Origin: Oscillospiraceae bacterium
GTDB lineage: Bacteria; Bacillota; Clostridia; Oscillospirales; Oscillospiraceae
Assembly: GCA_017397835.1 (NCBI GenBank)
Contig: JAFQHV010000029.1
Span: 1 to 57,812 of the forward strand
DNA: 57,812 bases
Reading direction: 5' to 3'
The translations under genes and the position numbers were made by a program. The notes under the pieces are model-generated. The model was not told where the DNA came from and ran no database searches. It saw only the letters and a program-made list of their open reading frames with translations. This document shows, in pieces, positions 1-57,812 of this stretch (its first letter is position 1; each line of letters begins with the position of its first letter).

Positions 1-3000
1 ACGCAGGCCGATGGGCATGGCCACGTCGGCGTACACGTTGCTGAAAGCGCTCTGCAGCTCCAACGTGAAGGAAGCGTTGGCGGGGGCGTACAGGTCCATG
101 GACACGGTGCCGTTCTGCAGGTAGGGGACGGAACGGGTGACCACGGAGTTCTTGGCGACCTGCATGGAGTACTTGTCCCGGGCGTTGGTGGTAGAGACCA
201 GGGCTCCGTCACCGGAGTTGGTGATCCAACCCTCATACTGAGCCGTGCCGTGCTCGAAGTTGTCGTAGCCGCCGCGGGTGCGGGTGAACCACTTGTCGAA
301 GTCCTGGATCAGCATGAACAGATAGGATCGGGCACCGCTGAGGTCCTGGAACGTGATGATCATATCGGTGTCGTTGATCTTGGCTGCAGTGGGGTTGGTA
401 ATGGTGTAGTTGCGGGCACCGTAGCTTTCCATCTCGGTTTCAAAGAACAGGTTCTGAATGTTACGGTAGGTCTCACTGCCGTTGATGGAAAGGGCTACGT
501 TCATGGGGTTTCGGATATAGCTGCGGCAGCCCAGTGCGGTGTTGCCGCCCCAGATGGACAGGTCGGCGGACTTGCCGTTGACGGGGAAGTCGGCAATGGT
601 GGCCTGGGTATTGGTGGTGTACATCTTGGACAGGGTGGCTTCCTCCATCCAGGTCACGCCCTGATCCAGGGAGTAGGATACACCGAAGTGGTCCAAAGAC
701 TCATCCTGGCAGCGGGTGTACAGAGTCAGCACACCCTCGCCGTTGTCCTGAATATACGCCTCGGAACAGCCGTTTTCGGAGTTGGTGGCGATGTCACCGT
801 AGGTGATCAGGCTCTTGCTCAGGTGCCAGCTCTTGCCGGCATCCTTGGTGTAGGCCACGCGGCAGCAGAAGCCGCCCATGTTGTTGTACTGGGCACCCAT
901 GGGGAAGACCATATCCACCTTGGGACCCTCGCCGTCGTAGGTGGTCAGAACGGTGCCGCCGGAGTAGGTCAGCATATAGGCGGACTGGGGATCATTGACT
1001 ACGTCACGGGGCAGGGTGTCGGCCAAATACCAGCTCTTGCCGCCGTTATCGGAGGCAATGACCATCTGCACGCAGTTGGACCTGGTGATATCCAGAGGAG
1101 TGAACTTGTTGTTGGGGTCGACCCAATAGGTTTGGAAGAAGATGCGGCCGGTGTGGTAGTCAAAGGTGAAAGCACCGCTGCCGCCCATGCGTTCCACGGG
1201 GGTCTTCAGGACGGGGGACACGGTGTTTATCACCTTGGAGTGTTCCTTCCAGGTGCGGCCGCCGTCGGTGGAAATGTTCAGCTTGCTGCCCATGGCGTAG
1301 ATGGTTTCCTGCTCCAACTTGGTGCCGTTGGGGAATTTGGTGCCGGCGGGCAGAGCCATGATCCAGCGCTGGGTCTTCTCTGCGCTCTCGTTGTTGTAGA
1401 TTTCACGGTTTCCGTAGGTGATCTCGTACACGTTTTCCTTGCTGGCAAGCTCGATGGCGCCGGCCGCGGCCTGCTGCACGTAGACCGTGGCGCTGGCGCC
1501 GGGGGCCAGCTCGGGGTAACGGACGATGACGGTGTCGCCGTCCACGCAGTGGTACAGGAGGTTTCCGTCCTTGTCAAACACGCGCAGGCGGTTCAGATCG
1601 CCGGTCAGACCGGCAATGGGCAGGGACGGGTCGTACTTGACGGCGGTGGTATTGGTCACGGTGTACTCGGTGGCGCCGCCTTTGACAAAGGAGTTGTTGT
1701 AGCCGGCAGAGATCATGGTGCCGTAGGCGCCGATGAAGTTGGCATCTTCACCGCGGTAGTGAGTGTAGTGGACCTTGACGTACTGGGCCGTGGTTTCAAA
1801 GCCGTACAGATACCAGTTCTTGCCGGACTGGGTCAGCATGAACTGCTTGATCTGCTTGTAGGTGACGTTGTCATTACTGACCCAAAGAGTCAGGGACTCG
1901 GCGTTCAGGCGGGCCCTGTCGTCGCCGTCGGTCAGGGTGACAAAGTTGACCTTTTCACTCTTGTCCTTAACGGCGATCAGGCTGTTGTTGCCGGTATCGA
2001 ACGTGAACAGCAGGTCGTCGTAAGCCACACCGGCGCCGGTGGCGGGGGAGATGTCATTTTTCAGATGCAGCACCTTGCTGTTATCCATGGTCTTGCCCAA
2101 CACCACCACGTCGAAGCTCTTGTGCTCGCCGCCGGCAGAGGCGGTCAGGGTGGCAAAGGCGACGCCCTTGCTGGGCTGGGTCACCACGCCGGTGCTGGTA
2201 ACAACGCTTTCGTCCGAGCTGGTCCAGGTGATGGGATAGGTGTTGTCCATCAGACCGTCGGTGATGGTGCCGGTCATGTTCAGATTGCTCGTCACCTGAT
2301 CGGCGCTGGGGTTGCTGCCGGCGATATCGGCAAAGGTGATTCGGCCCAGCAGACCGCCATCCTCGTTGTAGCTGTGTCCGAAGGAGAGGTTGCCGATGGT
2401 AACGTCGTAGCTGTCCTCGGGGCCGGTGGCACCGGACAGGTGGGGATTGCGAATCACGTTGAACACCACGGTGGAGTTGGAGGCACCCCTTTTCCACAGG
2501 GAGGCGGCGGGCATGGAGCCCTTTTTCACACCGTCCACGTAGATGTCCAGGGTGTCATCCAAATTCCACTCCACGGCGAGGTTAAAGGTGTCGCCCACCT
2601 TTTTGTCCAAATTGACCTTGTGGGCCGTATTATTGCGCATGGCGAAGACCAGGCCGTCTTCGGTGTTGACGATGCCGCAGACCACCGACCAGGCATCCTG
2701 ATTCTCGTCGTACTTGGTGCCGAAGGCAAAGGTGAAGCCGTAGTTGGAGTAAGCGCTGATGGCCACGGCGGGTTCGTCCCACTGGCCGATGGGCATGGAG
2801 TCGGCCCGGAAGTCGAACTCCAGACGGGTGCCCATGTTGCGATCGTCAAACCCGGGGTCGCTGTACAGCACATAGGTGCGGATACCGGCGGGGTTTTCTC
2901 CGCCGGGGTTATACAGGTCGTACAGACGCCAGCCGTTTTCCAGCTTGACAGCGCCCTGGAACCCGGCCACGGGATCGTTGTTGGTTACCTTGACCTGACT

Positions 3001-4962
3001 GGCAGAGCTGTATTTGGGGCTGTTGTTGCGGTTGACGGCGGAGAACCACACCACGTCGGTCAGGGTCAGGGTGTTGGTGGGGCCGTCAACGCCGTTGACG
3101 GTAATGGCCATGGGCATGGACTTGCCGTAGGTAGAGAGTTTGTCACCCAAACCGATGACGCGGAAGGGGAGGGACAGCTCCACGGTGTGAGCACCTACGG
3201 CCACCGCGGCCCCGGCGACTTCGGCACCGTTTGCCAACAGCTTGCCGTTTTCCACGGTGAAGGAATGGCCGTTGAAGGTCAGGGCCACGGGAGCGATGGC
3301 ATCCACAAAGTCAACGGCGGTGAACAGGTGGGTCTGGTTCCACTGGAAACCGTACTCGGCAATCAGCAGACCCTTTTGACCCAGAATACGGCCGCCCATA
3401 CGCCAGCCCTTTTCGGCGGAAACGCCGTCCAGGGTCACGGCAGGCTTGGCAAAAGATGCCTCCGCGCGGGCAGGGGAGGGGTACGCGGCCTCAGGACCCT
3501 TTACGACCACGGTAAAGGACTTGGTTTTGGCAGGGTCGTTGGTCAGCTTGGCGGTCAGGGTGACGGTTTCGTCTTTTTCAACCTTGGCGACCTTGCCGTC
3601 CGCGGTGATGATTTCAGGGTTGCTGCTGGTCCAGGTCAGGGGGATGGTCAGAGGGCCGGGGATGGACTTGACCAGGTTCAAATCGGAGTAGACAGCGGAG
3701 GTGGAGCCGTTGATACCTTTGATGGTGTCAAAGGTCAGGCTGTTCATCAACGCGGAGGGGTCCATCACCTTTTGGGCACCTACGGTCATGTGGGACAGGG
3801 TGATGTCGAAACCGTTTTCGCCGCTGGTGATATTGCTGGGGAAGGAATAGGCGCCGATCTGGAGGTGGGCAACGTAGGCGTCTTTGGCAAGACGGAAGGG
3901 GTTGTCGTACTCGGCGCCTTCGATGCGGCCTTTGAACACGTCGTCGACAAAGACGTCAATGGTATCGTTGGCGGCATCGTAGTTCAGGCGCAGGTGGAAC
4001 TGCTGGCCCAGCTTCTTGTCCAGTACGATCTTATGCGGCGCTTTGGCCGTATCAGCGTAGGCGGCCCCGTCGGCAAAGTCGGTGGCACGGACCACCAGGA
4101 CCAGACCCTCGTCCACATTGGTGATGCCGAAGCTCATACCGGAGGAGTTGGTGTTGGCGATGGCCCCGTCGTCGTTGGCGAGCTTACCGGTGACGAGGAA
4201 ATACAAACCGTAGCACAGCTCTTTCTGCGTTGTGGTGGTGTAGTAGCGGGCGTACACCGGCATTTGGTCGATGCGGCAGTCGAACTCCAGCGCCACGGGG
4301 GGCTTGGACGGATCGACGCACCGGAACGGCACGGCGATGGTGTTGCTGGTTTTTTCGGTGGCACCGCCGGTATGGCGCACCAGCACGGTGCTGTCGCCCT
4401 TGCCGGTCAGGCGCAGCGTGTCGGTGCTGCTGTTATAGTTGGCTTCGGAAGCGGTTTCGGTCTTGGTGGCGGGGAATTGGTTGACGGACGTACCCTCCAC
4501 GGAATCGAAGATCACAAACCCGTCCCACGTGGCGCTGCCCATGCTGACGCTGAGCTTGGCGGACTGGTCGTAGTCGGTCACAGTGAGCTTGGCATCGCTC
4601 AGGGGGATGCGGATCTCACGCTGCGTGGCACCGGCCTTGCCCTCCCGGGTCACGGACACGCCGTTGAGCGTGATGGACGTGGGGGCGGCGGGAGCGGAAC
4701 TGCCGGTGAAGCCGAGGTACAGGTTTTCACTGTCCCATACGGCACCGAACTTTAAGTCTTCGGTCAACGTGGCGTTGGTCTGCCACGCGGTCTCCTTCAA
4801 CGCGCCGTTTTCGCTGGTGGCGGCGGAGTACTTTGCGTGCAGGACCTTGTCACCTGCGGTCAGGGATGCCGCGGGCGCGTTTGCGGCAGCGGTACCCGGG
4901 AGCATGCCCAGAACCATGGTCAGGACAAGGATGGCGGAACAGAGTTTTTTTGTCGTCTTCAT
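1..4962 (-). CDS. Giant secreted multidomain sialidase-like protein A (C-terminus off the window)
   Basis: An open minus-strand frame runs from ATG at 4962 to the window edge: 1654 codons, no stop. The start has an AAGGAAGG ribosome binding site, and its ATG overlaps the TGA of the upstream AraC gene. Residues 1-27 are a signal peptide. Then come, in approximate order: a CBM9-like beta-sandwich (34-144), a concanavalin-like region, an Ig-like module with the phrase ITWTSSNPE (about 411-487), a second CBM9-like and concanavalin-like pair (500-860), a second Ig-like module (877-950), a discoidin-like region (953-1073), and a beta-propeller (about 1170-1470). The propeller has Asp-box repeats such as STDGGRTW, ASDNGGKSW and SLDQGVTW. 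The last visible part resembles the beta-sandwich that precedes the SLH anchor in the paralogues. An SLH anchor beyond the edge is inferred, not seen. Domain names are by eye; sialidase activity is not proven. Confidence 0.88.
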   Translation of the reverse strand, partial: MKTTKKLCSAILVLTMVLGMLPGTAAANAPAASLTAGDKVLHAKYSAATSENGALKETAWQTNATLTEDLKFGAVWDSENLYLGFTGSSAPAAPTSITLNGVSVTREGKAGATQREIRIPLSDAKLTVTDYDQSAKLSVSMGSATWDGFVIFDSVEGTSVNQFPATKTETASEANYNSSTDTLRLTGKGDSTVLVRHTGGATEKTSNTIAVPFRCVDPSKPPVALEFDCRIDQMPVYARYYTTTTQKELCYGLYFLVTGKLANDDGAIANTNSSGMSFGITNVDEGLVLVVRATDFADGAAYADTAKAPHKIVLDKKLGQQFHLRLNYDAANDTIDVFVDDVFKGRIEGAEYDNPFRLAKDAYVAHLQIGAYSFPSNITSGENGFDITLSHMTVGAQKVMDPSALMNSLTFDTIKGINGSTSAVYSDLNLVKSIPGPLTIPLTWTSSNPEIITADGKVAKVEKDETVTLTAKLTNDPAKTKSFTVVVKGPEAAYPSPARAEASFAKPAVTLDGVSAEKGWRMGGRILGQKGLLIAEYGFQWNQTHLFTAVDFVDAIAPVALTFNGHSFTVENGKLLANGAEVAGAAVAVGAHTVELSLPFRVIGLGDKLSTYGKSMPMAITVNGVDGPTNTLTLTDVVWFSAVNRNNSPKYSSASQVKVTNNDPVAGFQGAVKLENGWRLYDLYNPGGENPAGIRTYVLYSDPGFDDRNMGTRLEFDFRADSMPIGQWDEPAVAISAYSNYGFTFAFGTKYDENQDAWSVVCGIVNTEDGLVFAMRNNTAHKVNLDKKVGDTFNLAVEWNLDDTLDIYVDGVKKGSMPAASLWKRGASNSTVVFNVIRNPHLSGATGPEDSYDVTIGNLSFGHSYNEDGGLLGRITFADIAGSNPSADQVTSNLNMTGTITDGLMDNTYPITWTSSDESVVTSTGVVTQPSKGVAFATLTASAGGEHKSFDVVVLGKTMDNSKVLHLKNDISPATGAGVAYDDLLFTFDTGNNSLIAVKDKSEKVNFVTLTDGDDRARLNAESLTLWVSNDNVTYKQIKQFMLTQSGKNWYLYGFETTAQYVKVHYTHYRGEDANFIGAYGTMISAGYNNSFVKGGATEYTVTNTTAVKYDPSLPIAGLTGDLNRLRVFDKDGNLLYHCVDGDTVIVRYPELAPGASATVYVQQAAAGAIELASKENVYEITYGNREIYNNESAEKTQRWIMALPAGTKFPNGTKLEQETIYAMGSKLNISTDGGRTWKEHSKVINTVSPVLKTPVERMGGSGAFTFDYHTGRIFFQTYWVDPNNKFTPLDITRSNCVQMVIASDNGGKSWYLADTLPRDVVNDPQSAYMLTYSGGTVLTTYDGEGPKVDMVFPMGAQYNNMGGFCCRVAYTKDAGKSWHLSKSLITYGDIATNSENGCSEAYIQDNGEGVLTLYTRCQDESLDHFGVSYSLDQGVTWMEEATLSKMYTTNTQATIADFPVNGKSADLSIWGGNTALGCRSYIRNPMNVALSINGSETYRNIQNLFFETEMESYGARNYTITNPTAAKINDTDMIITFQDLSGARSYLFMLIQDFDKWFTRTRGGYDNFEHGTAQYEGWITNSGDGALVSTTNARDKYSMQVAKNSVVTRSVPYLQNGTVSMDLYAPANASFTLELQSAFSNVYADVAMPIGLR

Positions 4963-5861
4963 AGTTGATCCCTTCCTTTTGTTGCGGTTGATGTTTCGGT
5001 TTCGGTGATATTTACGGTTTGATATTTTCGGCGGTATTGCGCGGGGGAAATTCCATGATGCTGTTTGAAATTGGTGTAGAAAGTGGGTTCGGAGCTGTAG
5101 CCCACCTGCTTGCATATTTCGGACGTGGTTTGCTGTGTGGTGCGCAGCAGCCACGCGGCGTAGTCCATGCGCGTGTCCAGCAGCTTTTCCCGGAAGGTCA
5201 TGCCGTAGAGCTCGGGGATCAGGCGGCACAGTTGCCGTTTGGACATATGTAACCGGTCAGCGAGCTGCTGCATGACACCGTAGCTTGCCATGTTTTTTGT
5301 AAAAAAGGCTTCAATGGCGGTGACCATTTCGGTGGTATCTTTGGACCCGTTTCGGCCTGTGTTCGTTTCGTTTTTTTGCGCGTGCTTTTCCAAAGCCGAA
5401 AGCTGCCGCAGCAGGAACACCAGCAGTTGCCCAAGCTGAAAATGCAGCAGGGTTTCCGTATAAAGTGCCTCGCTGCCGTATTCCCGCATCATGGCATTGC
5501 ACAGGCTGCGGATCTCCGGTGGTGCAGTCATGCGTACGTATGGGGCGATCACCGTTTGCAGGCGGGGAGCCAGGGCTGATTTCGGTGTGGCGAAGGTGAT
5601 GGTAAACCGCTCGAAGGAACCGTTGTCTACCTTTGCCGCATGGTATACGCCGGGGGCTATGATCAGCGCATCCCCCGCAGAAAGGGAGATGGTGTCTTCC
5701 GCGACCTCCACCACACAGGAACCGTGCAGGATGATGTGCAGTTCGTAATTCACATTGCTGTGACGGGGCGGGTTCCAAACGTAGCGGTGATTGAGAAAAT
5801 TCGGGTTGAACTGGAACAAAACACGGGCATTGTCTACGGTTAATTCAAAATCGCGTTGCAC
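4959..5861 (-). CDS. AraC-family transcriptional regulator (cupin plus HTH), partner of A
   Basis: This 300-aa regulator has an N-terminal cupin-like sensing domain (HSNVNYELHIILHGS, then LSAGDALIIAPGVYH) and a C-terminal AraC/XylS double helix-turn-helix (LADRLHMSKRQLCRLIPELYG and VGYSSEPTFYTNFKQHHGISP). I place the start at GTG 5861 (TTG 5864 is also possible), because a run of G follows an A tract just upstream; the frame stays open further upstream but without a ribosome binding site. Its TGA overlaps the ATG of protein A (ATGA), so the two are almost certainly co-transcribed and translationally coupled. It is divergent from the GH116 gene. The likely role is to sense a glycan-derived ligand and activate A and possibly the GH116 gene; that role is inferred from position. 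Confidence 0.9.
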   Translation of the reverse strand: MQRDFELTVDNARVLFQFNPNFLNHRYVWNPPRHSNVNYELHIILHGSCVVEVAEDTISLSAGDALIIAPGVYHAAKVDNGSFERFTITFATPKSALAPRLQTVIAPYVRMTAPPEIRSLCNAMMREYGSEALYTETLLHFQLGQLLVFLLRQLSALEKHAQKNETNTGRNGSKDTTEMVTAIEAFFTKNMASYGVMQQLADRLHMSKRQLCRLIPELYGMTFREKLLDTRMDYAAWLLRTTQQTTSEICKQVGYSSEPTFYTNFKQHHGISPAQYRRKYQTVNITETETSTATKGRDQL

Positions 5862-6130: not shown

Positions 6131-8641
6131 ATGCCAATTTATCAGAAAGACCAACTGAAGCAGATCGTATTCCCCTTGGGCGGGATCGGAGCGGGCAGCA
6201 TCGGACTGGCCGGAAACGGCAAGCTGGTGGACTGCGAGATCTTTAACCGCCCCAACCGGGAGTCTGTATTCAAATATTCCTGTTTTTCCGTCAAGGCGGA
6301 GGACGAGGCGGGCGTGGTGGACTGGCGTGTGCTGAACGGCGACAACAACCGTGACTTTGCGGGTACGCTGTATCAGGACTACGGCCGGGGCGTGCCCGAT
6401 CCCATGTCCGGTATGCAGCACTTCGAGGACGTGACCTTTCGGGGGGCGTTTCCGTTTGCCGAACTGGAATTTGCCGACCGCAGATTTCCCGGTGCGGTGA
6501 CACTGGAGGCGTACAACCCCTTCATCCCCTCCAACAGCGAAGACAGCAGCCTGCCCGGGGCTTTTTTTGCCGTGCGGGTGCGAAACGATTCCGGACGGCG
6601 GCTGAATTACTCCGTGTCCTTTAACGTGACCAACCCCTTTGAGAAGAAGGGCCTGCACACACTGCGCAAGGAGGATGGCATCACCGCCATCACCCTGCAC
6701 AGCGCGGAGGAAGACCGCGGCAAACCCCAATACGGCAACCTGACCGTCGCCACCGACCATACCGGGCCGGTTTCCTATCAGCAGAACTGGTTCCGGGGTC
6801 TGCACCGGGATATGCCAACCATGTTCATCAACGACTTTTCCGCCTTTGGCCCATTTCGGAACCGTGTTTATGAGTTGAGTGACAAGGGGTACGACGATAC
6901 GGCCTCTCTGTGCCCCGGCTGCGTATTGGAACCGGGGGAGGAGACCGTGTTCCGCTTTGTACTGAGCTGGTACGTGCCCAACATTTACGTGGATTGGTTC
7001 AGCGGTGTGGAACCTTACGTGCTGAAGAATTATTACAGCACCCGGTACAAGGACTCCGGGGAGGTGGCGGACTACGCACTGCAAAACTGGGCGCGGCTGT
7101 ATGACGAAACCGGGCGATTTGCCGATGCCCTGTCCGGGTCCACGTTGCCTGAGTGTGTTGCCGATGCGATCCAGGGCAATCTGGCCACCCTGAAATCCAC
7201 CACCTGCCTGCGGCTGGAGGATGGCAGTTTTTGGGCGTGGGAAGGCGTGTGGCAAACAGTCGGGTCGTGCCACGGCACCTGCCAGCACGTGTGGGCCTAC
7301 GCCTATACCCTGCCTTTTCTGTTTCCCGATCTGGAGCGGGGGGTGCGGTCCAACGAGTTTGACTACAGTCTGCGCCGCAGCGGCATGATGCTGTTCCGCC
7401 TGCATCCGAACTTGGACGGCGAGGGACTTGAGATCGCCTGCGTGGACGGGCAGATGGGCGCGGTGATGCAGGCGTACCGGGATTGGAAGATATGCGGTGA
7501 CACCGAGTGGCTGCGGGACTACTGGCCAAAGATCAAACGCGCGCTGGAATACGCCTGGAGCCCGGAGAACCCCCACCGCTGGGATCCCGAACGCAGCGGC
7601 CTGATCACCGGCCGCCAGCACCACACTTTGGACCGGGAACTGTTTGGCCCCTACGCGTGGTTGACCGGGTTTTACCACGCCGCCCTGCTGGCCGCAGCGG
7701 AAATGGCCGAGACGGTGGGTGAGGCGGATAAGGCGGAAGAGTACCGGGATATCTTCCGCCGCGGCCACGAAACGCTGGAGACGGAAACCTTTAACGGCAG
7801 CTACTACGTCCACAAGATAGATTTGACAGACCGGTCCGTGCTGGACGCATACCCCGATGCCGCCGAGACCTATTGGAGTGATGAGACCGGACAGGTAAAG
7901 TATCAAATTCACAATGGCTGCGAGATCGATCAGGTACTGGCCGACTGGCACACCGACCTGATGGGTCTGCCCCACGTGTTTGACCAAAACCACCGCAAAT
8001 CGGCGCTGGAGGCCATCTATGCCAACAACTTCCGCGCCATGCGCGACCACTCCAATCCCTGGCGCATTTTCGCCTGTAACGAGGAGCGGGGCGTGGTCAT
8101 GTGCGCCTGGCCGGAGGGGGAGGAAAAGCCCCTGATCCCCATCCTCTACACCGAGGAGTGCATGACCGGTTTTGAGTATGCCTTTGCCTGTAACCTGCTC
8201 CAGTGCGGCATGGAGGATAAGGCGCTGGAGGTGGTGCGGGCAGTCCGTGACCGGTACGACGGGGCCAAGCGCAACCCCTGGGCCGAGCTGGAGGCCGGGG
8301 CAAGCTATGCCCGTGCCATGGCCAGCTATGCATTTTTGCTTACTTACAGCGGCTTCCGGTATGACCTGTCCCGGGATATGATCGGCTTTGTCCCCCTGCG
8401 CGGCGGCCGGTATTTCTGGGCCGTGGCGGGGGCCTGGGGCAGTGTGGAGCTGGACGAGAATCATGTGACACTTGAGGTTCTGTACGGCACACGGAAGCTG
8501 GGCGAGTTTGTGACCAACCTGAGTACCATTTCCGCGGTTGCCCACAACGGACAGGCGGTCGCCTTCACCGCGGAAGGCGGCACGGTTGGCCTGACCGACG
8601 TGGTCCTGTCCGCCGGCGACACGCTGGAGGTAACGAAGTGA
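6131..8641 (+). CDS. GH116-type (DUF608/GBA2-like) glycoside hydrolase
   Basis: This 836-aa protein has no signal peptide, so it should act in the cytoplasm on imported glycosides. The N-terminal third is a GBA2-type beta-sandwich (FPLGGIGAGSIGLAGNG near residue 10, typical of the family). The rest is an (alpha/alpha)6 barrel. Conserved family motifs include FWAWEG with Glu371, TCQHVWAYA, LFPDLE, and HHTLDRELFGP with Asp501; these acids correspond to the likely nucleophile and acid/base. Known GH116 enzymes act on beta-glucosides, beta-xylosides or beta-GlcNAc; the substrate here cannot be told. I chose ATG 6131, 13 codons into the open frame, because GAGGGGTGGG lies just upstream and the family start motif follows. 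It is divergent from the AraC-A operon and ends at a bidirectional terminator. Confidence 0.88.
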   Translation: MPIYQKDQLKQIVFPLGGIGAGSIGLAGNGKLVDCEIFNRPNRESVFKYSCFSVKAEDEAGVVDWRVLNGDNNRDFAGTLYQDYGRGVPDPMSGMQHFEDVTFRGAFPFAELEFADRRFPGAVTLEAYNPFIPSNSEDSSLPGAFFAVRVRNDSGRRLNYSVSFNVTNPFEKKGLHTLRKEDGITAITLHSAEEDRGKPQYGNLTVATDHTGPVSYQQNWFRGLHRDMPTMFINDFSAFGPFRNRVYELSDKGYDDTASLCPGCVLEPGEETVFRFVLSWYVPNIYVDWFSGVEPYVLKNYYSTRYKDSGEVADYALQNWARLYDETGRFADALSGSTLPECVADAIQGNLATLKSTTCLRLEDGSFWAWEGVWQTVGSCHGTCQHVWAYAYTLPFLFPDLERGVRSNEFDYSLRRSGMMLFRLHPNLDGEGLEIACVDGQMGAVMQAYRDWKICGDTEWLRDYWPKIKRALEYAWSPENPHRWDPERSGLITGRQHHTLDRELFGPYAWLTGFYHAALLAAAEMAETVGEADKAEEYRDIFRRGHETLETETFNGSYYVHKIDLTDRSVLDAYPDAAETYWSDETGQVKYQIHNGCEIDQVLADWHTDLMGLPHVFDQNHRKSALEAIYANNFRAMRDHSNPWRIFACNEERGVVMCAWPEGEEKPLIPILYTEECMTGFEYAFACNLLQCGMEDKALEVVRAVRDRYDGAKRNPWAELEAGASYARAMASYAFLLTYSGFRYDLSRDMIGFVPLRGGRYFWAVAGAWGSVELDENHVTLEVLYGTRKLGEFVTNLSTISAVAHNGQAVAFTAEGGTVGLTDVVLSAGDTLEVTK

Positions 8642-8698: not shown

Positions 8699-11600
8699 TT
8701 ACTTGCTCAGGTAGTTGGTCAACATCTGAGCCGTCTGTGCGCGGGTGGAGGGTGCGGTGATGTCGTTGTAGGGCAGGTTGTCCAGCAGACCCTTTTCCAC
8801 GCACCATTTCAGGGCGTTGGCAGCCCAATCGCTGTAACCCTTGATAGTGCTGATGTCACCCTTGCTGCTGGGTCTTCTGGCGTAGTTGTGCAGGATGACA
8901 GCCACCTGCTCCAGGGTAACGGGATCGTTGGGTTTGAACACGCCGCCGCCGTAGCCGCTGACCACACCTCTGCCGGCGCCCCAAGTAACCGCGTTGTTGA
9001 ACCACTCGGTAGCGGGCACATCCTTGAAGTTGTGCTTCTGACCGTTCAGGGAGGGCTGGCCCTCCTTGTTGTACAGCACCTGCACCACCATGGCGCGGGT
9101 TAGAGTGTCGTTGGGGCCGAAAGAGTGGGAGTTATAGCCGCTCATGATCTTGTTTTCCAGCACGTAGTTGACGGCATCGCAATACCACATACCGGGGATG
9201 ATGTCGCTCATGCCGTCGGTACCAGTGGTCTGCTGCTGGCTGATGATCAGGTTGTCGATGTCTACCTGGTTGCCGTAGCCGTTGCTCAGGGAGCCGCTGG
9301 AATAGAACTGGAAGCGGAAATGGTTGGGGGTGTCGGTGGACAGGCCGGGAACCTGGGCGATGGCGGTCCACTCGGTGGGTTCGGGCTGGGACTTGGGCCA
9401 CATCTTGGCGTACAGGGCGCCGTTGACGCAGGTCAGCTTGAAGGTGGCCCACTGTCGGTTGGGGACGACACCCTGCCAATCGCCGCCGGCAAGCTGGATG
9501 CCGGTGGTACCCTGTATGCGGTACATGGCGGTGTTGGGGTGGACGGCACCGTCGGAGTTTTTCTGGAACATGGTGGCGTAGATGCTGTTGGCACCCATCT
9601 CGTAGTTGCGGTAGTCGAACTGTACGGTGTAGTTGCCGGTGACGGTGGTGTTGGACATGATCCAGGGGGAGAGCATATTGCCGTCATCATAGAGCTGCAG
9701 GAACTTGTTGCCGTTCTCCTCCACAATGGAGTAACCCTTGCCGGGTTCGGTGCCGGGGGGTGTGGTGGCGAAAGCCTTGTCCTTGCCCAGATAGGCATAG
9801 AAGGCGTTGTCGCCCACAGGGTAGGAGGAGAAGTCCTCGGTCTGCATGACCTTCTTCTCGCCTGCGCCGGTCAGCTCGGCGGGGGCGGGACGGACGGCAA
9901 CCTCCACCGTGCGGGTAGCCTCGCCCAGGGTGACGGTGATGGTAGCCATGCCGGCGGAGAGGAAGGTGATCACGCCATCCTGATTCACAGGGGCGACATC
10001 GGGATTGCTGCTGGTCCAGACCATGGTACCGGCGGTGCCGTAACGGTCGTACGCGATGGCGCGGGTGCCGTCGCCGACGCTGCCGGTGATGCTGGACTCT
10101 ACATCCAGCATGGCGGGGACCTTAAGAGCCAAATTTTCCGCAGAGGCCTTACCGGCGGTGGCGGTCAACGTGGCGGCGGGGGTCATGCTCTTGTTCAGGT
10201 GATCGGTACACCACACGGACCAGGCGGGTTCGGCGGAACCGGCGACCCAAACCTTGCCCCACAGCATCTTGCCGATGGCGGCCACCTTGACGCTGTACTT
10301 GGTGCCGGCGGTCAGGGCGGTGTTCTGCAGGCAGGTGCCATCCAGACAGGCAACGCCCTTTGCGCTGAAGGTGACGCCCACATCGGTGCGCATCAGGGCC
10401 TGTACTGCGGAGCCGGCGCTGTCCAAAGTCAGGTCGAATTCCATGACGAAGCTGCCCATGGGCAGTTTGTCGGCGGGGGCGGCCCACTGGCCCAACTGGA
10501 CATTGTCAGCGGAGGCGATGGTGGCAAGATCTTTGGTAGTCAGGGTGTTGGGCAGGAACTCCTCGCTGTTGGGGTCATCCTTCACACCCACGATACTGAG
10601 ATACGCCTGGTCATACTGGACGGTCATCACAGTGCCGTCATCCGCATAGACACAGGAGGGGTCGGCGGCGTCCTGCTTTTGGCGCAGGGGGGAGGCGTAG
10701 ATCAGGCGGGTCTCGGTTTCGTCCCAGCCGGCATCGTAGTAGAACACCTTGCCCATGGTGCTGCGGGGGCTGTCCTCGTTCGCCCAGGTGACAAAGGCGC
10801 GGTTGGTGTCAATGAAGGCAAACTGGGGCTGCTGGGCAGAGCCGGGCTCGTTGGCGAACAGCTGCCAGGTGCGGCCGCGGTCATAGGTGACATAGACCAC
10901 GCCGCTGGAACGCACCATGCCGTACACCACCTTGTCGGTGCCGTCGGGAGAGACCATGGAGAACTCGTTGAAGGCATCGTTCTGGCTGGTCCAGTCACCG
11001 GCGGGAGCCAGGTTGGGCACATCGCGCACATTGTCCACGGGGTCCCACTCCCACTGCTGGGTCTTGGGGTTGAAGACCATGTCATAGATGATGACACGGC
11101 CGCCGGTGTAGGTGGGCAGCAGCATGGAACCGTCGTCGAACTGCACGGCGTCGCCGCGCTTGTTGGTGCTGGAAATGGTCTGGAAGGGCGACCAGTCCTT
11201 GCCGGGCTCGCCGGCCATCCAGCCGGCCAGATCGTCTACGGCGATCCAGGTCATCACAACGTCGCGGGTGTGGCTGGCGTTGCTATACACGCTGAAGAGG
11301 GAACCGGTGTACATCAGGGCATCCTCTGCCACGCCATCGTTATTCAAATCCATCTTGACGGGCAGCAGGTCGCTGTCGCCGGTGATGCCGCCCAGAGAGT
11401 AGGTGGCGCTGGGACTTTGCTTCAGGAAGTCGTAACGGCTGTAGAGGTTCTCCATGCCGGGGCCGTTCATCTGCAGCGCGGCCTTTTCCAGGTCGTACAG
11501 TTCCCGGGAGGTCCAGGTTTTGCCGTTGTCCTCGCTGATGGCGAAGCGGACGGAGTAGATTCCGACGATGGGTTTGGTTTTGTCAATAGAGTGGACGGGT

Positions 11601-14085: not shown

Positions 14086-14907
14086 ATGCCGAAAAAAGAA
14101 ATCATCAAAACCACGATTGGCGGCACCGCGTTTGAACTTCACATTTCTCCCCGGGCCCTTCTGTCCGCCCGGCACGAATGGGTCACCAACCGGCACAGCA
14201 ACGTGGATCACGAATTGCACGTTGTGGTGGACGGCACTTGCAGCGTGGAAGTGGAGGGGGTCGTGTATGACCTGCACGCCGGGCAGGCCATCCTCATTCT
14301 GCCGGGCAGCTTTCACAAACCCCTCTCTCATTCCCGGGATCTCGACAGGCTGACCCTTGGCTTTTTCCCCACCGCGGGCCGCCTTGTTCCCGATGAAGAC
14401 ACGCCCTGCATCATACTGGACCTCTCCACCACCACCGTTGCCCTTGCCCGGGAGCTGATGGACGAGTATGACTCCCCCGGCCCCTTCCATCAGAAGATGA
14501 CCCGCTCCCTGCTGGACCAGCTGACCATCCGTCTGCTGCGCAGGCTGGGAGTGATAGAGGCGCAAGTAACGCAGACGGTGAGTGTTGACCTGCGCATCGA
14601 CGTGATCGACGGTTTTTTTGCCGATTCCCTTGCGGATAACGTGACCAAAGAAGACCTTGCCGCCCGGCTGCATCTATCCTCCCGGCAGGTCAACCGCTTT
14701 TTGCACAAGCGCTACGGCATGAGCTTCCGGGAAAAGCTGTTCACCAGTCGGATGCAGCACGCCGGCTGGCTGCTGCGGCATACCCGGCTCCCTGTCCAGC
14801 AAATCGCACTCCAGGTGGGGTATACCTCCACTCCGGCATTTATCCGCAGTTTTACGCGGTTCCATGACCGGACACCACAGCAATTTCGTGAACAGACAGG
14901 CGAATAA
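14086..14907 (+). CDS. AraC-family transcriptional regulator (cupin plus HTH)
   Basis: This is a 273-aa homologue of the regulator at 4959-5861. It has a cupin-like ligand domain (RHSNVDHELHVVVDGTCSVE, then LHAGQAILILPGSFH) and a C-terminal AraC double HTH (LAARLHLSSRQVNRFLHKRYG; VGYTSTPAFIRSFTRFHDRTP). ATG 14086 follows AGGAGA at the right distance. It is divergent from B and lies just upstream of C on the same strand, separated from C by its own terminator, so it could control either or both. There is no direct evidence for the ligand. Confidence 0.92.
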   Translation: MPKKEIIKTTIGGTAFELHISPRALLSARHEWVTNRHSNVDHELHVVVDGTCSVEVEGVVYDLHAGQAILILPGSFHKPLSHSRDLDRLTLGFFPTAGRLVPDEDTPCIILDLSTTTVALARELMDEYDSPGPFHQKMTRSLLDQLTIRLLRRLGVIEAQVTQTVSVDLRIDVIDGFFADSLADNVTKEDLAARLHLSSRQVNRFLHKRYGMSFREKLFTSRMQHAGWLLRHTRLPVQQIALQVGYTSTPAFIRSFTRFHDRTPQQFREQTGE

Positions 14908-22097: not shown

Positions 22098-22134
22098 AAA
22101 AACACCCCTCTTTACAAAAGCGATCATTGTGTGA

Positions 22135-36949: not shown

Positions 36950-36992
36950 CCCCACACCTCCAATCACAAAAACGTTCAAAAATATAGTGCGG

Positions 36993-37073
36993 TTGAGCAC
37001 TGAACGCATCGAAAATTGCGGCACAGATATGCTATACTGATAGCATCGTAACAGATTTTTTGTCCAAACGCAA
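36993..37073. promoter_or_regulatory. Conserved AraC/giant-gene control region at the E locus
   Basis: The counterpart of 22141-22226. It has TTGAGCACT, ATCGAAAA, a -10 box TATACT (37033-37038), ATAGCAT, a T6 run and AAACGCAA. There is no recognisable -35 box at the proper distance, consistent with AraC activation. The -10 box lies about 67 bases before the E start codon, against 72 at the D locus. Confidence 0.55.
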
Positions 37074-44256: not shown

Positions 44257-45033
44257 TTATTCTTTTTTTGTCGGGCTTGTTCCGAAATGTTTTAGGTATA
44301 CACGGTAAAAATTGCTGTAATTTTCATAGCCAACATGCGCGGCGGCAACAGTTGCCGGAATGCCATCACCTATCAGTTTGCCTGCAAGGGCAAGCTTTTT
44401 TTGTAAGATATATTGTTTAGGGGAAATGTTCATTTTTGACTCAAACAAATGACAAAACGAGGACTTGGATCTCGATGTATGTCGGGCAAGATCATCAAGC
44501 AGGATCCTTTCGTGCAAATGCAGGTCGATATACTCGAATGTTCGTTGCAAAAACTCGTCGGCTTCAATTCTTTTGGGAGGCTGCGGCGTTAGAAATGTAT
44601 CATAGAATATTTCGATCATTATGGCTTGAAGCAGAGGAGCAAAAAAAGACGCATCTTCCTTCCGACAGATTTCTTTGATTTTTTCCATACGAGAAGTACT
44701 GACGGTTGTAGTTCTTTCCTGATTTGCAAATTTACTTTGCAAAACACACGGAATTGCATCAATGCTAAACAGCGCCGTAATTCTGCGATAGCATCCTTCT
44801 CCGTTTACCGTAACGGAATGGTAGAAAAGTGGTGGGATCATGATGATTTCGTTTTTCGTCAGGCGATAATTCTGCCCCTCCAGCATGATGGTAATATCGC
44901 CGTCTGCCACTGCGATCATTTCGTATTTTGAATGGCAGTGACGTTCCCACAGAACCGAATGTGCTATCTCGCTTTCGATATATTCAATTTCAAAATCATT
45001 CGTACTCGGCTCCAAGATCAAAAAAATCACCAC
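44257..45033 (-). CDS. AraC-family regulator of the redox island
   Basis: This 258-aa protein has a cupin-like domain (HCHSKYEMIAVADGDITIML; LTKNEIIMIPPLFYH) and a C-terminal AraC HTH pair (LARHTSRSKSSFCHLFESKM; HVGYENYSNFYRVYLKHFGT). Start is GTG 45033, or GTG 45030, after GAAAGGG. It is not close to the other four AraC proteins, is markedly AT-richer than they are, and is divergent from the reductase operon, which it most likely controls. It carries its own promoter at 45045-45072. Confidence 0.9.
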   Translation of the reverse strand: MVIFLILEPSTNDFEIEYIESEIAHSVLWERHCHSKYEMIAVADGDITIMLEGQNYRLTKNEIIMIPPLFYHSVTVNGEGCYRRITALFSIDAIPCVLQSKFANQERTTTVSTSRMEKIKEICRKEDASFFAPLLQAIMIEIFYDTFLTPQPPKRIEADEFLQRTFEYIDLHLHERILLDDLARHTSRSKSSFCHLFESKMNISPKQYILQKKLALAGKLIGDGIPATVAAAHVGYENYSNFYRVYLKHFGTSPTKKE

Positions 45034-51823: not shown

Positions 51824-54800
51824 ATGAAACGAGTGTTGTCGTGTTTGCTGACGTTGGTCATGGTGATTTCCATGGCCAACGGGTTTGCAGTGCCCGCGGC
51901 AGCGGTGCAGGCAGAACCGCTGCAGGCCTACCACACCACGGCCAATATGGCGGTGGACGGAAGGCTCATCGACGGCCACTGGCTGACCCGGGACCGGTTG
52001 GGCAGCACCCCTGTGGGCCTGCTGTGCAATCAGGACAGCCTGTTCATCGGCATGAAAACCGCCGCCAAAACCGCGGAATTCACCATCCATGGCGTGGCCA
52101 TGACCGCCGACTTCGAGGCCGGCTCTGTGGTAGCAAACGGCGTGAAGGTAGGCGTGGCTGCCATGAGTGTGGCCGCCGGAACCGTGGAGCTGGAAATTCC
52201 CCTTGTGGAGTTGGGTCTGGTGTACAGCGCCGGTCAGGTGGTGGATTTCGCCTGCAAGGTGGACGGTAATAGCTACTCCGGCAAGGCTGTACTGGCCGCA
52301 AAGACGGCTCTGATCGCCAACGACATGGATGACATCAGCAGCCTGCCCAACTACAAGAAAATGGGCACCCCCGGTAAGAGTGAGGTCTATGGCGAGCAGG
52401 GAGATGGCAGCTTGCATATCGGCACCGGTTCCATGACCGATGCCGGAGCCTCGCTGCATCTGCCGGAGTGGAGTTTTGCCGAAATCGGGTTTGACAAGAC
52501 CCGTGGCTACGAGCTGTCCTACACCATCGACTTTAATGACCTGACTGTGTCCGCTCCGGGACAGGAGGCCTATGTGGCAGTCACCGGCTTTGGCATCGAG
52601 ACCCGCAGCGGGGTGTATAACCGCCAGGGCTTCTCTGCCGACAAGAACGGCAATATTTTGGTTTCCCAGTACGAGCGTACGGCGGACACCACCAAGACCG
52701 TGGATACCGGCTATGACCTGGGTGCCAAGAACGTGCTTGTCCAGTTGATTGTGGATGACGAATATAACACCGCCGTTTATATGGACGGAAAGCTGATTAT
52801 CCAGTACAAGACCAGTGCCCGCACCGCCGACGGCGACTTCGTGCGTACCTCCACCAGCACCGCCCGCCGTGACCTGACCGTGGACAACGGTAACGACATC
52901 AACATTCACGATTTGCTGCTGACCCAAACCGCCCCTGACGAGCGGATGATCGTGTCCGGCTTCAATCCCGCCGACCTGAAGCTGGACGGCAGCACCGGCG
53001 AGATGGTGTGGGTCATGACCAACAAGGTGGGCGGCACCAAGTTCGGCCTGCTGGCAGACGAAAAGAACCTGTACATCGCCCTGAACACCGCTGAGGGCGA
53101 AGCGGAGCTGCTGCTCAACGGCAGCAAGGCCACCGCCAAGCTGGGTAAGAAGCCCACCATCGCCCTGGGCTACACCATGGGCAGCACCATTGCCGCCAAT
53201 GGCGATGGTCAATACGAGATTACCATTCCCCTGAGTCTGCTGGGCGAATTTGGCGATGTTCTGCCCTTTGCCATCACCGCCGGGGGGCAGACCCGAAAAT
53301 TCGGCCTGTCCCTGACCGGCACGGTGGTTGATCTGGTGACCAAGACTCCGGCTGACGGGGACGGCAAGCAGGTTGCCATCGCCTACCTGAACACCGATAA
53401 GGTGAAGATGGACGGTCTGCTGAAAGAGAACCACTGGTACGCCCCCTACCTGACCGCAGGCGGCGACATTGCCACCGGTGTGGGCTTTCTGTGGGACGCC
53501 ACCTATCTGTACGTGGGCGGACAGATGTTCAGTACCACCCGGGCCAAGTCCTTGAACCTGACCTTGGGGGGCAAGACCGTTACCGCCGACCTGGCCGACG
53601 GCACCGCCTCCGCAGGCGAAATCGCCAACGGCGGGCAGACCTTCGAATGGAAAATCGCTTTGGCCGACCTCGGCATTGAGGGCGGCATCAACGTGGCTAA
53701 GGACTACAAGCTGGATGTGGTGGGGCAGGAGGGTACCTCCACCCTCCACGGCAACCTGACCATGGCCGCCACCACCGTAGTGCTGGGTGACAGCTGCGAT
53801 GACTTCAACGCCAAGGGATATGTGAACAATACGGGTCCTGCGGTGAAGGGTACCCGCCTGGAGCAGGGTGCCGGCTTCTATAACATTACCACCGACTCCG
53901 CCATGACCGGCAACGAGATTTATCGCTGGTACACGCCGCTGCTGAACTACAACGGCGGCGCTTACGAGTTTACCTTTGACGTGACCATCCACTCCCTGCC
54001 CCACAACACCCGCAGCCTTGGCTGGCGCGGCCTGCTGTGGGAGATCCGTCAGCCGGAGCTGCAGGCACTGTATGCCTTCCGCAGTGACGGCAAAGGCAAC
54101 GTGTTTATGGATAATCTGGCTGCCCGCGGCTGCAACAGTGTGGATACCGGAATTGACTTCGGTCAGCGGGCGACCATCCAGATTGCCGTAAATGACAGTA
54201 ACGTGCCCAGCCTGTACGTCAATGGCAAGTTCATCGGCAGCTTCCCCATTCTGAACCGCACAACCTTTACCATTAATGATACCCTGCATATGCCCCGCAT
54301 GAACATTCAGATGGTCAACCATGACCGGGACCCCGATGCCGATGGCAAGCTGAACGGAACCAACATTGAAATTCATGACATTCTGTTCACCCAGACCCTG
54401 TATCGGGACGAGCAGGGGGCGGCAGAGAATGCCCTGCAGACCATCACCGAGGAAAGCATCCTGGCCGGGCAGAATCCCCGGGATGTGACCAAGCTGAACC
54501 TGGTGAAGAAGGTCACCGACCCCAACAGCGGCATCACCTGCGATGTGGTGTGGTCGGCCGTCGATACCGCCACCGGCCGCCCCGCCGAGAACGTCAATCT
54601 GGAGACCGGCGTGGTCAGCCGTCTGAGCCGACCTGTGGTGTTCGAACTGACCGCCACCGTGGTGTGCGGAAGCTCCGGTGTCAGCAAAAGCTTTACCTAT
54701 CAGGCGGCCGGTCAGGCCAAGGCGGGCAACGTGGCTCTCATCACCAAGGACGATGACCCCCGTGTGGGACAGGTCACAAGCTGGGCCAGCGGCACCTACG

Positions 54801-57739
54801 AGTATCTGGACACCACCCACAACAGCGTGGTGTTCGACCAGGGTTCCGGCAAGCAATTCAACACCATCAAGCTGTATGACTCCGACGAGTTCTCCCGCAT
54901 CAGCTACCAGCACCTCGGGGTGTTTGTCAGCGATGACGGCAAGAACTATACCAAGGTGAACGGTTGGCTGCTGCATCAGGACGGTAAGGAATACACCCTC
55001 TATAACCTGTCCGAAACCGCCCGGTATGTGAAGGTGCATTGCTACCATGATGCGCTGGACAACACAGGCAAGGAGGCTCCCAGCTTCTACAATGCCGTGG
55101 CCGACATGATGACGGTCAGCAACAACGCCAACCTGGCCGGGGCGGGCGGTGCCTTTGCCCACAAGGCCGACTATGTGGTGAAGAACACCACCGATAAAGC
55201 TCTGAAGGATTACCCCGCTTTTGTTGCTTTGGCTGATTTGGGTGCCAAAGCCGGCCAATACAAGAGCAATGGAACGGACTTCCGCTTTACCATGGGTAAG
55301 CAGCAGCTGGCCTACTGGTTCAATGGCAGCGACGGCTTCTATGTCCGCGTGCCGGAACTTGCAGCCAAGGGCAGCACCACCATCACCGCCCACTGGGGCT
55401 GCAGCAGTGCGGAGGACTTCTCCGATGCCGAGGCGGTGTTTGAGGTTGTCTACGGAAACGTATCCCTCTACGACCTGACCAATGAGACCGGGCTGGGTTC
55501 TCACGGCCGACCTTTCACCTTCTCCAACGGCGACATCATCGTTACCGGTCGCGACGGCGGCGAGGGCGGCACGGATGGCTTGGTCTTCGTCCGCTCCACC
55601 GATGGCGGCCGCACTTTCCACGAGGATACCGAGGGCGTGCTGAGCAACCTGGAACACGGTGGCCGTGCGGTTGGTTTTGGCGGCTATCTGTATGATGAGG
55701 AGTTGGATCGCGTGTTCCTCATCGCTTACAGCGGCGCCGTGGGCAATGACAACGACTACCGTCTGGTGCTGATTTACACCGACGACTGCGGCAAGACCTG
55801 GTCCGAGCCGGTATACCTGACCAACCCTGCCGTGGAGAAGTACCGGGACAACGACAGCATCCTGCAGAATGCCGACCCCAACTTCACCCGCGTCATCCTC
55901 TACTGCGACGGCATCAAAGTCCGTGAGGCGGACGGTGTCGGCCCCAACGTGGACTATGTCATCGTGAACAATGGCATCGACCATGTGACCAACGAAAACA
56001 AGGCGGAGACCATCTACTCCTGTGACGCCGGCAAGACCTGGATTTGCGGCGGCATGGTTGCAATGGATATTGACCGCAGCGTCAACCACGAGGCCGGCAT
56101 TTCCGAGCACAGCCTGTCCCAACTGGACGACGGCAGCCTGTACATGCTGTGCCGTGCCCAGCAGGCGGGTAACTACTACTTCTACGAGGCCCGCTCTTAC
56201 GATTTGGGCAAGACCTGGGAGAGCGGCTACTCCAAGGTCATAGCCTCCAACACCTCGCCCGTGGCGGTGGAGTACAGCGGCGAGCGGCTGCTGATGTGGT
56301 CCAGTATGAACGGTCTGGACGGTATGTCTTACCGCCGCACCCCTATGCATCTGGGCATCTCCACCGACAACTACCAGAGCTTTGACCACATTGTGGATCT
56401 GACCTTCGCCACCTCTTACGATGGTTTGGAGGAAACGTTCAGCCATATGATCCAGCCCGGTATCACCTTTACCAAGGACGGCAAGGACGCCTTTGTGGCC
56501 TTCTTCGACAACAACCTATCCCGCCGGAATGTGGAAAAGGCCAGCGCCGGTTTCCTGGTGGAGGAGTTCAGCGACATGATCCACCACACCAAGGGCGGTT
56601 ATGAGGACTTTGAGACCGCGTCTTTGAAGTTTGAAGGCTGGATGACCGTCGAGGGCAACCAAATCGAACTGACCCGAGAGGTCTCCGCCTCCGGTCTGCA
56701 GTCTATGAAGGTGCTGGACATTGGCCCCGGACAGGCGGCCCACGCCACCCGGCAGATCCCAACCATGAAGTCCGGTACCGTGGGTGCCAAGATGATGGTG
56801 CCCGCCGGCAATACCGAGTATTTCGCCATGGAGCTGAAGGCCGGTTACAACTTCACCCACATGCAGCATGCTCTGGCGGCGGTGGCGGTCAACGGCGACG
56901 GTACCGTGGCTCTGTGCTATGACAATGAGATTGTTCCTGTGACCAAGGTGTCCCCCGGCAGTTGGAATGACTACGCCATCCACTTTGATATCGCAACCAA
57001 GACCGGCAAGCTGTATGTCAACGGCAAGGCGGTCAGCGACATCAAGCTGGAGACCGGCGAGTATTCCTTCGGCAAGAAGGTGGAGGACGTAGTGCGTGAG
57101 ATCTCCTGCGTGCAGTTCATGCAGATTTCTGCTACCCCCTCTGTGGGCGATTGCCTGTATGTCGACGACTTCTACCTGACTGAGTTGGACACCCCCATCA
57201 AGCGTTCCGCCTACAGCATCGCCTTTGACGATGTGAAACAGGGCGCGTGGTACTATGAGGCGGTCGACTTCGCGGTGGAGAATGGCATCATGAGCGGCTA
57301 CAATGCCACCAAGTTCGGCCCCAACGACACCCTGAACCGAGCCATGGTGGTGCAGGTGCTGTACAACAAGGAAGGCCAACCCGCCTTGAACGGCCTGAAG
57401 CACAGCTTCTCCGACGTGCCGGCAAGCCAGTGGTTCAACAATGCCGTCACCTGGGGCAGCAACCGGGGCGTGGTGTCCGGGTTTGGCGGCGGTGTGTTCA
57501 AACCCGAGGATGCGGTCACTATCGAGCAGGTGGCGGTCATCCTGTGCAACTACTCTGGTGCGCCTGCCGGCTACGGTGACATCAGCAAGGTGGGCAGCCA
57601 CAGCGATTGGGCGGCCAACGCCCTGCGCTGGGCGGTTGGCGAAGGGATTCTGGATAACGTGCCCTTCCAAAATGCGACTGAGAAGGCTACCCGTGCCCAG
57701 ACGGCTCAGATGCTGACCAACTACCTGCGCAATATCTAA
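51824..57739 (+). CDS. Giant SLH-anchored sialidase-like protein F
   Basis: This 1971-aa protein has the same length and module order as C. The ATG follows CGGAGGAAAA, and a signal peptide ends near AAAVQAE. Then come CBM9-like modules (first MAVDGRLIDGHWLTRD; third VKMDGLLKENHWYAPY), concanavalin-like domains, Ig-like and discoidin-like modules (RYVKVHCYHDALD), and a linker. The sialidase-type propeller (about 1223-1579) starts HGRPFTFSNGDIIVTGR and has Asp boxes STDGGRTF, TDDCGKTW and SCDAGKTW. A beta-sandwich and three SLH repeats (1798-1971) follow. It is the only complete member without an AraC gene next to it: 51644-51823 upstream holds no clear promoter, and the nearest regulator is that of the redox island. 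Its SLH DNA shares long identical runs with E. Confidence 0.93.
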   Translation: MKRVLSCLLTLVMVISMANGFAVPAAAVQAEPLQAYHTTANMAVDGRLIDGHWLTRDRLGSTPVGLLCNQDSLFIGMKTAAKTAEFTIHGVAMTADFEAGSVVANGVKVGVAAMSVAAGTVELEIPLVELGLVYSAGQVVDFACKVDGNSYSGKAVLAAKTALIANDMDDISSLPNYKKMGTPGKSEVYGEQGDGSLHIGTGSMTDAGASLHLPEWSFAEIGFDKTRGYELSYTIDFNDLTVSAPGQEAYVAVTGFGIETRSGVYNRQGFSADKNGNILVSQYERTADTTKTVDTGYDLGAKNVLVQLIVDDEYNTAVYMDGKLIIQYKTSARTADGDFVRTSTSTARRDLTVDNGNDINIHDLLLTQTAPDERMIVSGFNPADLKLDGSTGEMVWVMTNKVGGTKFGLLADEKNLYIALNTAEGEAELLLNGSKATAKLGKKPTIALGYTMGSTIAANGDGQYEITIPLSLLGEFGDVLPFAITAGGQTRKFGLSLTGTVVDLVTKTPADGDGKQVAIAYLNTDKVKMDGLLKENHWYAPYLTAGGDIATGVGFLWDATYLYVGGQMFSTTRAKSLNLTLGGKTVTADLADGTASAGEIANGGQTFEWKIALADLGIEGGINVAKDYKLDVVGQEGTSTLHGNLTMAATTVVLGDSCDDFNAKGYVNNTGPAVKGTRLEQGAGFYNITTDSAMTGNEIYRWYTPLLNYNGGAYEFTFDVTIHSLPHNTRSLGWRGLLWEIRQPELQALYAFRSDGKGNVFMDNLAARGCNSVDTGIDFGQRATIQIAVNDSNVPSLYVNGKFIGSFPILNRTTFTINDTLHMPRMNIQMVNHDRDPDADGKLNGTNIEIHDILFTQTLYRDEQGAAENALQTITEESILAGQNPRDVTKLNLVKKVTDPNSGITCDVVWSAVDTATGRPAENVNLETGVVSRLSRPVVFELTATVVCGSSGVSKSFTYQAAGQAKAGNVALITKDDDPRVGQVTSWASGTYEYLDTTHNSVVFDQGSGKQFNTIKLYDSDEFSRISYQHLGVFVSDDGKNYTKVNGWLLHQDGKEYTLYNLSETARYVKVHCYHDALDNTGKEAPSFYNAVADMMTVSNNANLAGAGGAFAHKADYVVKNTTDKALKDYPAFVALADLGAKAGQYKSNGTDFRFTMGKQQLAYWFNGSDGFYVRVPELAAKGSTTITAHWGCSSAEDFSDAEAVFEVVYGNVSLYDLTNETGLGSHGRPFTFSNGDIIVTGRDGGEGGTDGLVFVRSTDGGRTFHEDTEGVLSNLEHGGRAVGFGGYLYDEELDRVFLIAYSGAVGNDNDYRLVLIYTDDCGKTWSEPVYLTNPAVEKYRDNDSILQNADPNFTRVILYCDGIKVREADGVGPNVDYVIVNNGIDHVTNENKAETIYSCDAGKTWICGGMVAMDIDRSVNHEAGISEHSLSQLDDGSLYMLCRAQQAGNYYFYEARSYDLGKTWESGYSKVIASNTSPVAVEYSGERLLMWSSMNGLDGMSYRRTPMHLGISTDNYQSFDHIVDLTFATSYDGLEETFSHMIQPGITFTKDGKDAFVAFFDNNLSRRNVEKASAGFLVEEFSDMIHHTKGGYEDFETASLKFEGWMTVEGNQIELTREVSASGLQSMKVLDIGPGQAAHATRQIPTMKSGTVGAKMMVPAGNTEYFAMELKAGYNFTHMQHALAAVAVNGDGTVALCYDNEIVPVTKVSPGSWNDYAIHFDIATKTGKLYVNGKAVSDIKLETGEYSFGKKVEDVVREISCVQFMQISATPSVGDCLYVDDFYLTELDTPIKRSAYSIAFDDVKQGAWYYEAVDFAVENGIMSGYNATKFGPNDTLNRAMVVQVLYNKEGQPALNGLKHSFSDVPASQWFNNAVTWGSNRGVVSGFGGGVFKPEDAVTIEQVAVILCNYSGAPAGYGDISKVGSHSDWAANALRWAVGEGILDNVPFQNATEKATRAQTAQMLTNYLRNI

Positions 57740-57770
57740 TTTGCTTTCTTCATTCTCCTATTTCCACACA

Positions 57771-57812
57771 AGCAAAACCCCCGCGGTCCGTTTGGACCGC
57801 GGGGGTTTTGCT
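57771..57812 (+). terminator. Intrinsic terminator of gene F
   Basis: A perfect 19-bp GC-rich stem (57771-57789 with 57794-57812) has a GTTT loop and ends at the last base of the window. It closely matches the terminators after C and D. Confidence 0.85.

Follow-up and report, generated by a model that had tools for sequence, protein, structure and literature searches.

The stretch of DNA analysed here, called the window throughout, comprises 57,812 bases of the genome of Oscillospiraceae bacterium GCA_017397835.1 (G000) and is dominated by six giant open reading frames (ORFs), A to F, with five AraC genes located between them (Table 1). The giants occupy 33,966 bases, i.e. 58.8% of the window, in good agreement with a preliminary description of this DNA which had put them at about 60%. 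Four of them, C to F, belong to a family of modular surface proteins in which, as judged from a comparison with the genomes of two related species (G346 and G347), recombination appears to have re-paired protein bodies with promoters and cell wall anchors.

Table 1. Giant genes, AraC genes and other features of the window
Feature	Position	Strand	Remarks
Giant A	1..4962	-	Divergent relative; aBig_2 x2, weak discoidin, BNR_3 propeller
AraC1 (class c168)	4959..5861	-	Upstream of A, same strand; HTH_18 match 5025-5264
GH116 glycosidase	6131..8641	+	PF12215 and PF04685
Giant B	8699..13876	-	Big_2, DUF4886, weak BNR, SLH; architecture unlike C-F
AraC2 (class c170)	14086..14907	+	Divergent from B, in tandem upstream of C
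Giant C (og11)	15129..21044	+	
C residues 30-866	15216..17726	+	CBM9, ConA, CBM9, CBM9, ConA; AlphaFold2 model, fold search, hhalign
C propeller, GH33 sialidase fold	18774..19904	+	
C SLH anchor, residues 1796-1971	20514..21041	+	Segment with partly lost orthology in the family
AraC3 (class c172)	21186..22148	-	Divergent from D
Giant D (og7)	22257..28232	+	
AraC4 (class c172)	35981..37024	-	Divergent from E
Giant E (og4)	37105..43122	+	
AraC5	44257..45033	-	Divergent from low-GC metabolic operon preceding F
Giant F (og10)	51824..57739	+	Proximal promoter and 3' end resemble og8
Contig end	57727..57812	+	86 bases identical to start of contig C26

Giants C, D, E and F align end to end (D, E and F are 54%, 51% and 62% identical to C, respectively). 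Each is about 2,000 residues long and contains a signal-peptide-like start, from which secretion is predicted, three CBM9-like modules, two homologous concanavalin-like (ConA) modules and a third likely one, Ig-like, discoidin-like and DUF2341-like regions, a GH33-fold propeller and a C-terminal S-layer homology (SLH) anchor with two strong repeats (PF00395, E 7e-22 to 1e-24). The single module order previously ascribed to these four giants was thus found to be conserved among them. An AlphaFold2 model of C residues 30-866 had a mean predicted local distance difference test (pLDDT) score of 84.3, and a fold search with it returned CBM9 and ConA folds for its last two modules, including a match to the CBM9 structure 1i82, so that the CBM9 fold could be assigned; the search was filled mostly by one ConA domain and barely tested the other modules. 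A PDB sequence search with the N-terminal half yielded nothing useful. The picture of six alike giants held only in part: C to F are homologous and A is their divergent relative, whereas B has a different architecture (Big_2, DUF4886, SLH), which rules out six giants of one family. Giant A partially matches the profiles of C-F and has a full-length, SLH-bearing relative in G347 (L103); its own 3' end, with any SLH, was lost at the contig end. In an NCBIfam scan of A, B, C and D, the only match was in the SLH region, in B, C and D, with nothing in A. Giant A and an A-like gene on contig C31 (L081 1-100) are identical over at least 100 bases right at their cut-off ends (window 1-100).

The family extends beyond the window, which had been taken for the whole system. 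G000 (1.84 Mb in 43 contigs, 96% complete) encodes ten full-length members and one without SLH, together making up 3.6% of its bases; four of the ten lie in the window, while the other six and the SLH-less member lie outside. The latter (L077 9626-15673; G000 C6:189625-195672) ends in Laminin_G_3, has an orthologue in G347 C16, and is possibly released rather than anchored. Another SLH protein, of 2,049 residues and with four InlB B-repeat-like stretches (L082 5198-11347), has a Pfam body unlike that of the family. Within the genus, a profile without SLH matched three of 64 genomes (G000, G346 and G347) at E 1e-20, ruling out a spread of the family through the genus. Another profile search matched 61 of 61 genomes, and in the 58 others, among the matches listed, the hits fell in the SLH part; a further genus scan scored at most two candidates per listed genome. 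The three genomes, one per species, are draft assemblies, and at least two were assembled from metagenomes. In a protein tree of 29 rows, 24 of 26 inner branches were strongly supported, and 12 orthogroups (og) were read from it by hand. Of the 31 family rows, 25 entered the module and tree statistics given below; the two SLH-less og1 members and four contig-end fragments from G347 were set aside. A literature search found nothing combining 'S-layer homology', sialidase and Oscillospiraceae, and none of the broader matches listed, judged by title, dealt with a giant sialidase-fold family.

Between species, the giants are on the whole less conserved than other genes (medians of about 80% vs 90-92% in the two comparisons with G000), and their modules have diverged unevenly. 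Among G000 paralogues (45 pairs), mean identity was 43-51% for CBM9, ConA-1, ConA-2, Ig and propeller, 55% for ConA-3, 63-69% for discoidin and DUF2341, and 81% for SLH. The anchors differed from the bodies in their relationships as well. The nearest relative belonged to the same orthogroup for all 23 propellers, but for only 11 of the 23 SLH segments. At the DNA level, propellers were 85.2% identical within orthogroups vs 62.4-62.6% between them; for SLH, the corresponding values were 84.6% vs 81.4-81.7%. While the N-terminal tree kept nine of nine orthogroups and the propeller tree eight, the SLH tree kept five together and four fell apart, og4, og12 and og3 being rejected as SLH clades by approximately unbiased (AU) tests (p 1e-8, 3e-5 and 9e-4, respectively). 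Orthology of the SLH segments has therefore been lost in part; complete loss is ruled out by the five orthogroups that retained it. The C pair (97.9% identical across species at the protein level, compared to 93.6% for the F pair) has bodies 98.3% identical and SLH segments 85.2% identical. Among the gene-conversion literature matches listed, none concerned SLH proteins, as judged by title.

In three loci, one per genome, the promoter is closest in sequence to the promoter of another orthogroup: i) the upstream region of the G347 copy of C is 97% identical over 110 bases to the og6 upstream region in G346, with the change to C-like sequence falling at bases 25-70, within the region of the signal peptide; ii) F has og8-like last 77 upstream bases as well as an og8-like 3' end, and follows the operon that precedes og8 in G346; iii) og4 of G346 has an upstream region 75-78% identical to that of og3 and adjoins an og3-type AraC gene. 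As for ii), DNA identity between F and its G347 orthologue, in blocks of 60 codons, is 77-86% as far as codon 508 or so, 92% in the following block, 96-100% between approximately codons 570 and 1830 (C numbering), and 94, 80 and 78% in the blocks after that. Sigma-70 promoter scans of the regions preceding C and F gave no match. Across species, the first upstream gene was kept in 16 of 22 orthologue pairs and the first downstream gene in two of 14 (Fisher p 0.0016; hand counts of non-independent pairs, those without context left out), a pattern that fits breakpoints at the 3' end. Downstream of F, the last 86 bases of the window equal the start of contig C26 (6,551 bases, containing one og8 giant), and the two ends of C26 share 141 bases with each other, so og8 probably follows F in tandem, as judged from this end overlap only. 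The og8 giant of C26 could be one or several tandem copies.

Such patterns might be mimicked by short reads that were wrongly joined where SLH or 5' stretches are similar. Contigs indeed break inside giants in G347 and at the shared 141-base ends in G000, and E and F share identical SLH tracts of 101 and 90 bases. However, the 25 SLH segments compared are all distinct, with a maximum identity of 92%, a re-paired promoter occurs once in each genome, F and the og4 gene of G346 lie well inside contigs on their upstream side, and the breakpoint of F near codons 510-570 is away from the three longest tracts listed as shared in each within-genome F pair. Altogether, we consider an assembly artefact unlikely as the source of the re-pairing.

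The giants could also represent a coat that varies primarily under phage or immune pressure, with glycan binding being secondary. The apparent exchange of bodies between species, flanked by conserved ends and comparable to the C. difficile S-layer cassettes described in PMC6254364, would agree with such a role, as would the fact that another species has nearly identical C and F bodies. On the other hand, the ratio of nonsynonymous to synonymous substitution rates (dN/dS) between orthologues (11 pairs) was below 1 in all modules, with medians ranging from 0.16 in discoidin and 0.21 in the propeller to 0.40 in CBM9-1, so that no positive (diversifying) selection is seen at module resolution, and residues of ligand type are invariant in the propeller. 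A primarily variable coat thus seems unlikely.

The GH33 catalytic set consists of an arginine triad, a glutamate, a nucleophilic tyrosine and an acid/base aspartate. The propeller of C is six-bladed, with the GH33 sialidase fold and about 20% identity to its best match. R1231 (C numbering) is invariant in 29 of 29 rows, and E1429, R1445 and R1506 in all 28 covered rows; E1429 and R1445 line up with NanA chains of solved structure, whereas R1231 and R1506 were placed solely by motif, without superposition. No invariant Tyr was found at the expected nucleophile site: Tyr occupies 12 of 29 rows in one candidate column, and the other candidate columns hold an invariant Gln or Met/Phe/Val/Lys, the register near Tyr being unsettled by sequence alignment. 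In the loop after R1, where the acid/base Asp would be expected, no Asp is invariant, and the loops of og1 and og2 lack Asp altogether. The possibility that the propellers are ordinary retaining GH33 enzymes, freeing sialic acid for a nan operon, would agree with their fold, with the invariant three arginines and glutamate, and with the nan-type operon in G000. The Tyr and Asp columns speak against it, subject to the unsettled Tyr register, and we find this possibility rather doubtful. Compared to GH33 sialidases such as Micromonospora 1w8o, NanA and NanI, the giants share the fold; they differ in their length and SLH anchor, in the lack of an identified conserved catalytic Tyr or Asp, and in their low sequence identity. 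The operon itself (L111 335-3916 in G000) is, by its predicted gene content, a sialic acid catabolic (nan-type) operon, comprising NanE, NanA-like and ROK kinase-like genes (the latter two below curated cut-offs), NagA and a divergent AraC gene. NanE is present in all three genomes.

Nine of the 20 distinct non-giant neighbours of giants in G000 (hand count) are AraC genes, vs 41 AraC genes genome-wide (p 4e-11 to 5e-10). For class c170, the divergent partner of all six genes is a giant: five times an SLH giant of 1,729-1,747 residues and once a 1,168-residue ORF preceding a 1,733-residue SLH giant. Class c172 is divergent from og7 (D) in all three species, one of these being a contig-end fragment, and from og4 (E) in three of four cases, thus serving two different clades of the protein tree. 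As for c168, the same AraC-A order as in the window is found in G347 C2. The private regulators of the preliminary description can therefore be retained as an enrichment of AraC genes beside giants with some conserved pairings (c170 and c172-og7), but not for every giant, since C and F have no private divergent AraC. This bears on the idea that the giants are alternatives, each expressed on its own ligand via a private AraC. It is favoured by the frequency of AraC genes beside giants, far above chance, by the pairings c170 with giants, c172 with og7 and c168 with A in two genomes, and by the conservation of the first upstream gene noted above. Against it, five of the nine full-length G000 members with known context (C, F, og5, og9 and og12; og8 has no context) have no divergent AraC immediately upstream. 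Ligand-specific switching is further weakened because one AraC class serves two distant orthogroups and because three loci carry a promoter closest to that of another orthogroup, promoters and bodies thus looking re-paired; we regard it as improbable. Only for some of the giants is control by a local AraC likely. The og12 giant has the same series of genes upstream, in unchanged order, in all three species (L076 979-6396): two from one GH20-like cluster (one of them tested), an AraC gene and an amidohydrolase gene.

We consider it moderately probable that the giants constitute a lineage-specific, SLH-anchored repertoire predicted to capture glycans, in which recombination re-pairs bodies with promoters and anchors. 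The expanded surface glycan-capture set proposed earlier is in this respect supported by paralogy, modules and anchor, glycan capture itself being a prediction. According to this model, the SLH repeats would hold each giant on a pyruvylated wall polymer, the lectin-like modules would hold glycans, and the propeller would bind or cleave an acidic sugar, for example sialic acid, that could, if released, feed the nan-type operon of the same genome. PF04230 enzymes, candidates for CsaB, were found above cut-off in all three genomes, a family-level match consistent with wall pyruvylation. Bodies would then be re-paired with promoters, regulators and anchors, both within and between species, by homologous recombination in the signal peptide and SLH regions, where the ends are conserved. 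More tentatively, the genes might be viewed as three exchangeable parts, i.e. a start with regulator, promoter and signal peptide, a body of about 1,750 residues, and an end with SLH and terminator. Bodies would move between loci and species, re-pairing control, specificity and anchoring, and the propeller head, with its carboxylate-binding arginines and changed nucleophile site, would act as a lectin or by other chemistry.

Several observations weigh against the re-pairing model. Assembly error is the main caveat, since all three genomes are drafts, whose contigs break inside giant genes (in G347, and in G000 at the shared ends). Five of nine orthogroups keep their SLH, and og11, i.e. the C pair, was not rejected as an SLH clade (AU p 0.23). 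The contig with the clearest re-paired case, G347 C43, begins only 110 bases upstream of the gene. No dN/dS value exceeded 0.64, and the identity of the C and F bodies is not exceptional, some other genes being 99-100% identical. As for the architecture, the model of residues 866-1796 has a mean pLDDT of 68, and discoidin, DUF2341 and ConA-3 were barely covered by the fold search.

Besides the giants and AraC genes, the window contains an MGH1-like glycosidase in addition to the GH116 enzyme, and pyruvate formate-lyase with its activase, two rRNA methyltransferase-like genes and a low-GC metabolic operon were recognized by eye from translations. Gene calls were made with a simple codon-bias script, which missed some genes (e.g. 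AraC5) and mis-set some starts. The low-GC operon (44257-51643, GC 45-52%) comprises AraC and OYE-like, SDR, FAD reductase-like, TIM-barrel and 2-hydroxyacid dehydrogenase genes together with an unknown 338-aa gene. For four of its genes, identity to G346 C12 is 97.9-99.6% vs a median of 91.5% for 54 non-giant reciprocal-best pairs, and by this measure the operon was possibly transferred recently.

SLH-anchored multimodular glycosidases with CBM9 are a known type. The giants resemble them in their CBM9 fold and SLH anchor, but their Pfam scans show no xylanase domain, they carry a propeller head, and they are found in three species. S-layer cassette exchange in C. difficile was reportedly described by Dingle in 2013, and in Campylobacter fetus, sap variation involves variable surface-protein bodies and homologous recombination. 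For C. difficile, PMC6254364 states that the variable bodies of surface proteins are thought to be exchanged by homologous recombination. The giants would share this mode of exchange; unlike in those systems, about ten dispersed giant copies coexist in one genome, the conserved anchor is a C-terminal SLH, and no switching within a strain was observed, one genome per species being compared. Gram-positive polysaccharide utilization loci, according to PMC5320581, need a degrading enzyme, a regulator and a transport system together. The window resembles such loci in having AraC genes beside glycan-active proteins and GH116 and MGH1-like enzymes, but no transporter was recognized among its genes (by eye, and with Pfam/NCBIfam for part of them; no transporter profile search was run), so that it falls short of this definition.

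If the re-pairing model is true, body exchange at conserved ends, as thought for S-layer variation in a pathogen, would be at work in predicted glycan-binding surface proteins of a gut bacterium, with regulators and anchors being re-paired to bodies. It would then become testable whether recombination, rather than the gain of new loci, diversifies glycan capture in commensals, and whether a regulator has to co-evolve with specificity. In such genomes the neighbours of a gene may say little about its substrate, and the propellers lend themselves to studying what role a sialidase fold takes on once its catalytic site drifts.
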